DNA from: a virus
Length of the DNA: 22,235 bases
Virus record (IMG/VR): IMGVR_UViG_3300027714_000140
Coordinates: 1-22,235 of that record
Reading direction: 5' to 3' (one strand)
Under the pieces are notes generated by a model, which was given only the letters and a program-made list of their open reading frames with translations, had not been told where the DNA came from and searched no databases. The translations under genes were made by a program, and so were the position numbers. Shown here piece by piece: positions 5,952 to 9,028 of the stretch (position 1 is its first letter; each line of letters begins with the position of its first letter).

Positions 5952-6933
5952 GAATGTTCCTCCAGCTATTATAAAAGACTATTTGTCCGAGAAATTTGCA
6001 GAAAATACCCAATCTGGGCGTGAATTCCGTATTAATTCCATATTTGCCACCGATGACAAGCAGAAGCTCTATATTAACCTGGATACGGGACTGTGGACTG
6101 ATTTCAAATCCGGGGAAAAAGGAAACTTCTTCCAACTCATCTCGCACGTAGAGAATGTCCCTTACTTATCAGCACGCTCATTTATAAATAAGATTGCGTT
6201 CGACAAGGGAGTCAACCTCTTTGATGTATCTACCTTGAATGTAGAGAATGAAGCTATTTCCGTGGAGCGTACCATTAAGGCTGACATGGAGGACTGGATT
6301 GAGGTTGACCCTAAGAAGGATATAAATTCTACTAATGCCTTGAAGCGCTTGGCTTCCAAATTCGCCATTTCTCGTAAGCTTGCGTCCTTTAAATTTTACG
6401 TAGGTAAGACGGGGCGTTACTTTCAGAGAATTATAATTCCTTATGTTGATAAGAAGGGTTGTTTTTACTTCCAAGCTCGTACACTTATAAACCGGGACCC
6501 TAAGTACTTAAATCCGAGTAAGGGCTTGTATGGTATTAAGACATCAGAAATCCTGTATCCCTACGATAAGTCTTTGGAGTACGTCATGGTTACTGAAGGT
6601 CCTTTAGACGCAATGTCGCTTCGAGCAGCTGGCTTCAACGCTACATGCACTCAGGGCTGTAAGATGTCTACGGTCCAAGCTAAGGAGCTTAAAGGCAAGA
6701 GAGTAATACTCGCATACGATAATGACGAAAGTGGACAGGAGGGCTTCGCTGAAGCTAAGAAGAGACTCCTGACCCAACGCACCAATGACATCTACTCCCT
6801 GCGTCCCCCGAAGCACTATAAGGACTGGAATGATTACTGGGTAGCCGCAAAACGTAAAGACTTTGAAGCTTATGTGTACGCTAATATAAATAAAGCGAAT
6901 TGGGAGCTAACTGCTACCTCACTATTAACTTAA
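5950..6933 (+). CDS. 61: DNA primase, Toprim domain, gp61-like
   Basis: 327 aa, close to T4 gp61 (342 aa). The Toprim fold is clear: E216 in VTEGPLDAMS and the acidic motif YDNDESG with D257 and D259, which bind catalytic metal for RNA primer synthesis. The C-terminal KDWNDYW motif is common in phage Toprim primases. The N-terminus (residues 25-62: INSIFATDD, YINLDTGLWTDF, GEKGNFF) has the outline of the CHC2 zinc-binding domain, but every zinc-ligand cysteine and histidine is gone. The primase would work with a replicative helicase not in this window. The start overlaps the nuclease start codon on the other strand; the conserved region begins around residue 8, so this ATG fits. Its 3' end overlaps the convergent 332-aa gene by 20 bp. 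Confidence 0.85.
   Translation: MNVPPAIIKDYLSEKFAENTQSGREFRINSIFATDDKQKLYINLDTGLWTDFKSGEKGNFFQLISHVENVPYLSARSFINKIAFDKGVNLFDVSTLNVENEAISVERTIKADMEDWIEVDPKKDINSTNALKRLASKFAISRKLASFKFYVGKTGRYFQRIIIPYVDKKGCFYFQARTLINRDPKYLNPSKGLYGIKTSEILYPYDKSLEYVMVTEGPLDAMSLRAAGFNATCTQGCKMSTVQAKELKGKRVILAYDNDESGQEGFAEAKKRLLTQRTNDIYSLRPPKHYKDWNDYWVAAKRKDFEAYVYANINKANWELTATSLLT
5956..5973 (-). promoter_or_regulatory. Shine-Dalgarno and -10 of the nuclease gene, inside primase codons
   Basis: On the minus strand TATAAT (complement of 5968-5973) is followed by GGAGGAAC (complement of 5956-5963) and then the nuclease ATG at 5951. This is one of the few strong Shine-Dalgarno sites in the window, and it lies within primase codons 3-8, so both genes constrain the same bases. 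Confidence 0.55.
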
Positions 6934-7912
6934 ACTTGGTACTGTAAAAGGTTTCTGTTAAAATATTGTATTTCACAGTAATTTCATACACTCCCCTTGA
7001 CCCACCTAAAATATCCGCTGTATCAGGCTCATTGAATTTTGGTACGATGAGGGATGTATCCCAAAGATAGCTTATTAGATTTTGTGAATCTAATTGTATG
7101 GTGCCTACGGTATCTTCGAAGTCGTGAATCATCACGCGACTAGTTAATTCAGGACTCTCATTCAACTTAACAATTCGCATTGAAGGGTTAGAAAGCAAAG
7201 CACCTGTCTCCAATAGATTGCGCAGGCTATCTGAGATAGGCTCGTTATCTACTACCAGCTCGGTTTTAACGCGAAGCTTTTCCTTACTCCCTACTTCTAC
7301 ATAACGCTGAATCAGTTTGTTGGTGGGAGTTACTAATAAAGGTTCCGTTATTGCTACGACTGAGGCGGAGTTTAGCTTAAACGAGTTGGCATAAATCTGT
7401 GCACTGGAACCCTCTACATCTACTAAGGTCCAAATATCCAAGTAGTCACCTGTTGCACTTGCACTATTACCTAATACGGGTAACCATGCATTATCTGGGG
7501 CTGTTGTGGGGAAATACTCCGCACCTGGTTGGAGGATTACTGTAAAGTTTCCTACACTTGGGTTGAAAATAGCGCTTGCGGAATTACCTCCGACGTAAGT
7601 AGATTCAGCAGCCATAGCACTTACATTTGCATCAAAGCCAATTCTGTCGCCACTTCCATTGCGTTTGTAATTACGGAAAATGTAGTCTGTAGCTGTAGAG
7701 CTTACTAAACCATAATTCGCATCACCGGGAGTTAGGTTAACATAAGGGTTAGGAGACCCAAACTGTGTGTTGGGGAAAACATGGACCGAACATACCTGAA
7801 AAGGGTTCTGGTAACTGCCATCCTTAATCCATATAAAATCAATTTTGCATGGGCTGATGGGGGATGGGCGGTTAGCCCGGTTAATTACTGTAATATCGTT
7901 GAACTTTGTCAT
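6914..7912 (-). CDS. Probable virion structural protein, beta-rich, unknown family
   Basis: 332 aa, rich in Ser, Asn, Thr, Val and Gly with alternating short beta-type strands and no catalytic signature, signal peptide or membrane span. The C-terminus (YEITVKYNILTETFYSTKFKLIVR split over the last 24 residues) looks like a closing beta hairpin. A late-type box CTAAATAA lies 8 nt upstream, so it is probably expressed with virion genes. It is next to the gp26-like gene and its frameshift extension; the promoter overlaps that extension's stop codon. A tail, baseplate or fibre role is plausible from context only; I do not recognise the family. Confidence 0.6.
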   Translation of the reverse strand: MTKFNDITVINRANRPSPISPCKIDFIWIKDGSYQNPFQVCSVHVFPNTQFGSPNPYVNLTPGDANYGLVSSTATDYIFRNYKRNGSGDRIGFDANVSAMAAESTYVGGNSASAIFNPSVGNFTVILQPGAEYFPTTAPDNAWLPVLGNSASATGDYLDIWTLVDVEGSSAQIYANSFKLNSASVVAITEPLLVTPTNKLIQRYVEVGSKEKLRVKTELVVDNEPISDSLRNLLETGALLSNPSMRIVKLNESPELTSRVMIHDFEDTVGTIQLDSQNLISYLWDTSLIVPKFNEPDTADILGGSRGVYEITVKYNILTETFYSTKFKLIVR

Positions 7913-7919
7913 GTCTTAA

Positions 7920-7927
7920 TTATTTAG
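7920..7927 (-). promoter_or_regulatory. Late-type promoter box CTAAATAA
   Basis: Minus-strand CTAAATAA, matching the octamer found before several other late genes in this window. Taking T4 late-promoter geometry, transcription would start about 2 nt before the ATG at 7912. The box coincides with the last codons and stop of the frameshift extension. Confidence 0.45.
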
Positions 7928-8108
7928 AGGACCTAGAAGACTCAAGTGCTTCTTTCTCACGATTGCTTTCTTCAATTAACAAATCCATGAACTTACCCCT
8001 CTCCTCACCAGTCATAAGGTACATATCATGAAGGGTGAAGTGGGCGTGTTTTATTAGGGAGTATACTTCCGATGCTAGGTTATCCCCTCGAACAACTAGC
8101 TCACGGAG
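7920..8108 (-). CDS. -1 frame extension of the gp26-like protein (tail-chaperone-like domain)
   Basis: This is a 62-codon segment entered by a -1 ribosomal shift after codon 307 of the gp26-like gene, giving a product of about 369 aa (7920-9028). It has no ATG, GTG or TTG in its first 27 codons, yet the protein is compositionally normal from the very first residues: LRELVVRGDNLASEVYSLI, then KHAHFTLHDMYLMTGEERG, then a charged helix ending in SSRSSK. The hydrophobic-helix / H-x-x-x-x-L / E-R pattern resembles small chaperone domains next to gp26-type proteins in phage tails and contractile injection systems (the DUF6760 type, as I recall it), and it occupies the place of T4 gene 51 beside gene 26. 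Chaperoning the tape measure or hub is inference. Confidence 0.7.
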   Translation of the reverse strand, partial: LRELVVRGDNLASEVYSLIKHAHFTLHDMYLMTGEERGKFMDLLIEESNREKEALESSRSSK

Positions 8109-8114
8109 AAAAAA
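8074..8114 (-). promoter_or_regulatory. Programmed -1 ribosomal frameshift signal
   Basis: In transcript order: slippery heptamer T_TTT_TTC in the zero frame (complement of 8114-8108), a 7-nt spacer (8107-8101), then a hairpin whose arms are GCTAGTTGTT (8100-8091) and GATAACCTAGC (8084-8074), with one bulged C, two G-U pairs and a 6-nt loop. The zero frame stops at 8096, three codons past the slip. Heptamer phase, spacing and stem all fit known -1 frameshift sites. Confidence 0.75.
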
Positions 8115-9028
8115 GACTCATTGAATGGTACAAAGGTCTCTATCGTCTCCCCACAGGACGCACAATCAAAAGCGATTTTTTTAGTAAAGCCATAATGTGT
8201 TTTCGCTAGATTTTCGCGAAAAAATGCGATATCTCTAACGGTAGTCTTTTCAAAGAACTGACGCAAAATCTTTTTGTCCGCATGGGCACCTACCGATAAC
8301 GCAAAGCGCCATAGATTTTCTGTTAAGGCTACCATATCTTCCATATAAGGTTCGTCTTTAGCGCGGGGCTTAACATACTTTACTACCTGGTCACTATCTG
8401 GAAGGGTTATCTCCATTGGCTCTTCGAAATCATCTGCTGCGTACTCTACAGGAATTTCACTAATAAGAAGATTAAGTCTATTCTCAGCAGAGCAGTCAGT
8501 GCAGTTTGCTGTTATTACGTATTTATCTCCATAGGAAATCTCCCGTAACTTGAACAGTACATAGTTTTTATCTTCTAAAGTCATTACATCGTAATCTAAA
8601 CCTTGTACACAATCTGTAAATAAAGATTTTATTACGTTGTTAGCTTGATTTACCTTTTTAATACTGCGTAACTTCTTCTCCTCACGGTACGTAAATGCTT
8701 TAATTTGAACAGTTCCATCGTGGTCACGGTAGGATTTTCCTCTAGAAGGAAGGTCCAATGGCATCCACTCATTTATACCACCTACATTTTTGAGCAGGTC
8801 ATTAACTGCAGCTGCAACGGTTCCGTCAAAAGTATCCTTAACTACTGTTTTAGGCTCCTCTTTCTTGGAGTTAAACTTTAAATCCTCCTCCGGGATTTCT
8901 ACACGTTCCTTGGCTGACGTTGCAGGTGCATCTGGCACACTAACTCCTTGAGCAGGGTCAGCGCCAGACTGGTGCATATGGTCGCGAGCTAGGTCGATAA
9001 GGGATTTTTCTTTATTGGGTGGAGTCAT
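8096..9028 (-). CDS. 26: Baseplate hub/assembly protein, gp26-like, with zinc-ribbon cysteines
   Basis: 310 aa in the zero frame. Residues 1-85 are a variable, charged and probably disordered arm. The family core begins at MPLDLPSRGKSY (89-100), followed by the YREEKKLRSI helix, LEDKNYVLFKLREISYG (151-167) and two cysteine pairs, C176/C179 (CTDC) and C289/C292 (CASC), which could hold one zinc. This is the layout of the T4 gp26-type baseplate family, whose relatives also occur in contractile injection systems. In T4, gene 26 lies between 25 and 51 next to uvsW; here it is divergent from the UvsW gene. The short product ends SFFSVS; a -1 shift at residues 305-307 adds 62 more residues. The start at 9028 has context AAATTATG and no Shine-Dalgarno sequence. 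Confidence 0.78.
   Translation of the reverse strand: MTPPNKEKSLIDLARDHMHQSGADPAQGVSVPDAPATSAKERVEIPEEDLKFNSKKEEPKTVVKDTFDGTVAAAVNDLLKNVGGINEWMPLDLPSRGKSYRDHDGTVQIKAFTYREEKKLRSIKKVNQANNVIKSLFTDCVQGLDYDVMTLEDKNYVLFKLREISYGDKYVITANCTDCSAENRLNLLISEIPVEYAADDFEEPMEITLPDSDQVVKYVKPRAKDEPYMEDMVALTENLWRFALSVGAHADKKILRQFFEKTTVRDIAFFRENLAKTHYGFTKKIAFDCASCGETIETFVPFNESFFSVS

Follow-up and report, generated by a model that had tools for sequence, protein, structure and literature searches.

A predicted -1 frameshift pairing a putative gp26-type tail assembly chaperone with a gp51-like long form in an uncultured marine T4-like virus

We analysed a stretch of viral DNA of 22,235 nucleotides (nt), the IMG/VR record IMGVR_UViG_3300027714_000140 (hereafter the window, the coordinates of which are used throughout), and within it a minus-strand locus at 9028-7920 where a gene of the T4 gp26 family is followed, in the -1 frame, by an open extension. 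The locus very probably encodes a pair of tail assembly chaperones (TAC) made by ribosomal frameshifting, a short gp26-type form (TAC-N) and a long form with a gp51-like end (TAC-NC). In this reading a marine T4-like myovirus has here its tail assembly chaperone gene, which would be read by most ribosomes as far as 8096, giving a gp26-type TAC-N of 310 amino acids (aa), and a fraction of ribosomes would slip by -1 on the heptamer T_TTT_TTC, aided by a downstream stem, to give a TAC-NC of 369 aa ending in a helical domain that is related to the C-terminal part of T4 gp51. Both forms, in a fixed ratio, would then act jointly on the tape measure protein as the tail is built, by analogy with the G and GT proteins of phage lambda. 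What speaks for this in the sequence is a conserved slippery site, a stem, a -1 coding frame and the homology of the two halves to T4 gp26 and gp51; we infer the slippage itself, its efficiency and the chaperone role. For the frameshift, the support is close to the best that sequence by itself can give.

Reading frames and slippery site

The zero-frame gene (9028-8096, minus strand, as are all elements of the locus) encodes the 310-aa protein of the gp26 family, the putative TAC-N, and its 3' end reads ...AAT GAG TCT TTT TTC TCC GTG AGC TAG. The slippery heptamer T_TTT_TTC (8114-8108) lies in the zero frame as TC[T TTT TTC] and is followed by a 7-nt spacer (8107-8101) and by a putative stimulatory stem-loop of 11 bp with one bulged C (8100-8074), proposed from a fold of -16.3 kcal/mol and from covariation of the core stem; the TAG at 8098-8096 closes the short form. 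The -1 frame is shut two codons upstream of the slip site and from there stays open for 62 codons and a stop (8108-7920), which form the putative TAC-C domain. From these parts the whole frameshift product (9028-7920), the putative TAC-NC, is predicted to have 369 aa (307 + 62). An earlier note on this DNA had placed the heptamer, the spacer, the hairpin (given as about 10 bp), the zero-frame stop and the 62-codon frame at these same positions and had arrived at the same size for the fusion. It had also reported no start codon in the first 27 codons of the extension, in agreement with our finding that the earliest ATG, GTG or TTG comes only after 28 codons.

The heptamer by itself is unremarkable. 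Across the window there are 38 in-frame sites of the form X_XXY_YYZ (Y = A/T) per 6123 codon steps, so that its occurrence alone is not above chance, and what matters is its placement at the end of the gene and its conservation.

Conservation of the heptamer, codon choice and stem

Two scans of viral contigs yielded 80 distinct relatives, to which more members were added from isolated phages. The set used for the analysis comprises 67 non-redundant relatives (about 15% to 84% identity), all with the extension in the -1 frame, and takes in the cyanophages P-SSM7 and ACG-2014g, phiWae14 and the KVP40-like phages V09 and Moby; T4, Thornevirus, SagM-GXN1, LR756511, LR756508, GG32 and RL2RES, which have other architectures, were kept outside it. 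Six in-frame T are retained in 67/67 members (TTTTTTC in 55 and TTTTTTT in 12), each of which has a -1 extension of 56-68 aa, and the distance from the end of the heptamer to the end of the zero-frame stop is 12 nt in 59.

This constancy bears on the idea of a pseudogene, or of a sequencing or assembly error in which the loss or gain of a T within the six-T run has broken a continuous open reading frame. Homopolymer runs such as these six T are typical places for errors, and the earlier note had named such an error as a possible refutation; the arrangement is nevertheless present throughout the 67 sequences, which include independent assemblies and complete cultured cyanophage genomes. That every relative has the six T in frame excludes a sequencing error there, and the relatives refute this explanation as a whole.

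Codon choice around the heptamer is also constrained. In the window's clade (25 members compared), pairwise identity of codons that encode the same amino acid reaches 0.84 in the last six codons, compared with 0.46 gene-wide, a level matched in this clade only by the translation start region, and a second clade (26 members) has an equal peak (0.84 versus 0.47). Past the zero-frame stop, the pairwise differences at codon positions 1/2/3 are 0.33/0.25/0.54, a periodicity of the -1 frame. The Phe-Phe pair is conserved family-wide even where there is no heptamer, being encoded in SP-15 by TTT TTT after GAA, and the signal therefore lies in the T that precedes the pair and in the codons chosen for it. 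T4 gp26 offers a natural control: its conserved Phe-Phe is encoded by TTC TTT after GAG, without a heptamer, and T4 gene 51 is separate and on the opposite strand.

The same data can be set against the view that the heptamer is incidental and that the extension forms a small gene (gp51) in its own right with an independent start, which is how cyanophages and KVP40-like phages are annotated. Cyanophage records do carry a 31-aa gp51 from an internal ATG, and an ATG overlaps the zero-frame stop in V09, RL2RES and Moby (TAATG, TGATG), with TAATG also in LR756511. The earlier note had pointed to relatives with a separate start as counter-evidence to frameshifting, but 55 of the 67 relatives have no ATG, GTG or TTG between the upstream -1 stop and codon 10 of the extension. 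In the window, use of the first start would cost 28 residues, including the conserved part EL...L..E.Y.L..H, and the constrained codons near the heptamer, found in two clades, would have no place in this explanation, which we consider very unlikely. A poly-T heptamer and a stop-overlapping ATG are found together in RL2RES (TTTTTTG; locus L097, 3140-3160), V09 (L098, 3260-3280) and Moby (L100, 2730-2745), and frameshifting and coupled restart may coexist in these three phages. Besides its TAATG overlap, the jumbo phage LR756511 (L009, 3200-3290) has an in-frame T_TTT_TTC about 24 codons ahead of the zero-frame stop, and its -1 frame is uninterrupted.

For the stem, covariation was needed, since by energy alone the fold in the window does not differ significantly from shuffled sequences (z -1.9 and -0.3). 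The core stem was taken as seven pairs; the outer UCCG/CGGA pairs predicted for the window are not conserved and were left out of the count. In the window's clade 93% of cells are paired and both-side (compensatory) changes occur in 4/7 pairs; 0/500 shuffles equalled the pairing or the covariation score of the core stem, and shifting the partner strand abolished the signal. A search of Rfam gave no match.

Protein families and the proposed chaperone role

The 310-aa protein matches PF12322 (T4_baseplate; 1.1e-17, 64.9 bits for a cut-off of 24.5) and phrog_150 (baseplate hub; 2e-18), and the profile of the TAC-N family matches T4 gp26 with a probability of 98.4%, so that the short form is the predicted counterpart of T4 gp26. 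The profile of the extension family matches residues 209-247 (of 249) of T4 gp51 (probability 72.7%, E 3e-5), and phrog_634, the gp51 family, is matched by 20 of 30 extension members (best 1.7e-29), the window's own copy giving a weak match (E 0.078). The gp51-like matches that the earlier note had expected were thus found. It had named DUF6760 (PF20546) as the other possibility, a candidate that we rejected, as the window had no match and only 2 of the 30 extensions matched weakly (best E 0.008).

Residues 12-121 of T4 gp51 are in turn matched by the TAC-N profile (76.8%, E 2e-5), which gives T4 gp51 the appearance of a complete N + C protein. Because its N-terminal half resembles the gp26 family, the probable counterpart of gp51 is the 369-aa fusion and not the 62-aa extension. 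The proposal in the earlier note that the functions of genes 26 and 51 are here one gene read two ways stands in so far as a G/GT-like -1 shift would join a protein of the gp26 family to a tail related to gp51, and needs qualification in that the extension matches only the last ~40 residues of gp51.

The AlphaFold model of the extension has three helices (mean pLDDT 82.9). Comparison of its 62 residues with isolated phages by tblastn gave no match, a Foldseek search of the PDB with the extension returned nothing useful, and a sequence search for a solved relative found none. Using Foldseek against viral predicted structures, we recovered the gp26 family only, with SP-15 ranked first. A scan of genome contigs gave one distant match, in a deltaproteobacterial metagenome-assembled genome (L102, 2812-3743). 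There a distant gp26-like gene is overlapped at its end by a 92-aa -1 open reading frame and followed closely by a tape-measure-like gene; a clear slippery heptamer could not be made out at this locus.

The chaperone role proposed for the two forms rests on analogy, on gene position in SP-15 and LIS04 and on Vladimirov et al. 2022. An alternative accepts the frameshift but gives the long form another function than tape measure chaperone, for example catalysis of hub assembly, as in the classical T4 literature on gp26 and gp51, and is in keeping with the fact that the next gene in the window is no recognised tape measure. In Thornevirus SP-15 and LIS04, however, the gp26-family gene sits between the tail tube and the tape measure, the classical chaperone position, and genes of this kind have been identified as T4-like tail assembly chaperones, as they are named in the title of Vladimirov, Gautam and Davidson (Virology 2022, 10.1016/j.virol.2021.11.003). 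Moreover, the T4 tape measure gp29 is a hub protein too, so that both roles are compatible. We consider another function unlikely, with an appreciable chance of being correct, and retain the tape measure chaperone as the preferred interpretation.

Several results weigh against a frameshifted chaperone pair of this type. In the neighbourhood, the next gene (6914-7912, minus strand; 332 aa) has no Pfam or PHROG match at E 0.001, and the window's candidate for a tape measure lies about 3.5 kb beyond it and matches phrog_167 weakly (E 0.003). A Foldseek search of the PDB with the predicted model of TAC-N matched no solved structure and hence no solved chaperone. As for the RNA, a second marine clade keeps the pairing of the stem without excess covariation, and no strong stem was found 3' of the heptamer in the cyanophages P-SSM7 and ACG-2014g, nor in phiWae14. 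The heptamer is a family-wide feature and the stem a clade-level one, not universal; of the conservation anticipated in the earlier note, that of the heptamer and of the silent sites was borne out and that of the hairpin holds for the window's clade.

A gene similar in size to the 332-aa gene comes after the extension in most of the sampled relatives.

Other recoding routes and comparison with known systems

Four phages lack the poly-T heptamer and have their gp51-like extension in the +1 (or -2) frame with respect to gp26, namely Listeria phage LIS04, Bacillus phage SP-15, Streptococcus phage SagM-GXN1 and the jumbo phage LR756508 (loci L007, 3165-3400; L008, 3171-3410; L010, 3180-3490; L101, 3200-3518). 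LIS04, SP-15 and SagM-GXN1 have CCCGATT in common at the junction, and in the junction region of SP-15 no ATG, GTG or TTG precedes the conserved part of the extension. This +1-frame placement in Thornevirus and the others is the least explained of our observations, and its occurrence in some distant relatives is possibly new. We tentatively suggest, at somewhat less than even chances, that one chaperone family reaches its long form by several routes, namely poly-T -1 frameshifting (marine T4-like phages and cyanophages), +1/-2 frameshifting (SP-15/LIS04, SagM-GXN1 and LR756508), stop-start overlap and separate genes (T4). If this is true, the direction of frameshifting would have switched in evolution and left the protein product unchanged.

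The cyanophages of the Kyanoviridae (P-SSM7, ACG-2014g), annotated with gp26 and a short 'gp51', share with the window the TTTTTTC heptamer, the -1 extension and the protein family, but differ in that the zero-frame stop comes 6 nt after the heptamer and that there is no stem at 7-nt spacing. Their gp51 is annotated as the 31-aa gene from an internal ATG (L093, 3274-3369; L094, 3277-3372), instead of the 64-codon -1 extension of gp26 that the sequence supports. Sullivan et al. 2010 (PMC3037559) described cyanophage gp51 as having about 20% of the normal length, without the first ~200 residues and with a similar C-terminus; this short gp51 is explained by annotations that cover no more than part of the -1 extension. 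The gp51 calls in such genomes should become a joined gp26/51 product.

Compared with lambda G/GT, the likeness is one of arrangement, and no sequence relation is claimed: the lambda slippery site is G_GGA_AAG whereas that of the window is T_TTT_TTC, and the N-domain here comes from the gp26 family, which is zinc-ribbon-like and has Cys pairs that are conserved. In the T4-like TAC-N/TAC-NC (gp26/gp51) systems, both the protein families and the poly-T -1 signal are the same as in the window. According to the work of Vladimirov and colleagues, TAC-NC frameshifting is reportedly conserved in several T4-like groups, T4's own group using the separate genes 26 and 51. The TAC locus of Pseudomonas phage Adele (Vandenendeviridae/Andersonviridae), upstream of the tape measure, has a conserved -1 frameshift with an invariant GTTTTT at the 3' end of TAC-N (PMC12846349); the phage families are different and the likeness is the -1 frameshift at this end of the gene. 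The earlier note knew of no description of such a frameshift for gp26-family genes, but poly-T -1 signals in TAC-N genes of T4-like phages are already credited to Vladimirov et al. 2022 by PMC12846349. The phenomenon is thus published, and the window is a new lineage of the published T4-like frameshifted chaperones, distinguished from them by its uncultured marine origin and by the covarying stem of its clade. A large uncultured marine group is hereby placed in the published T4-like chaperone scheme, with unusually strong sequence evidence from the slippery site, the codon choice and the covarying stem.
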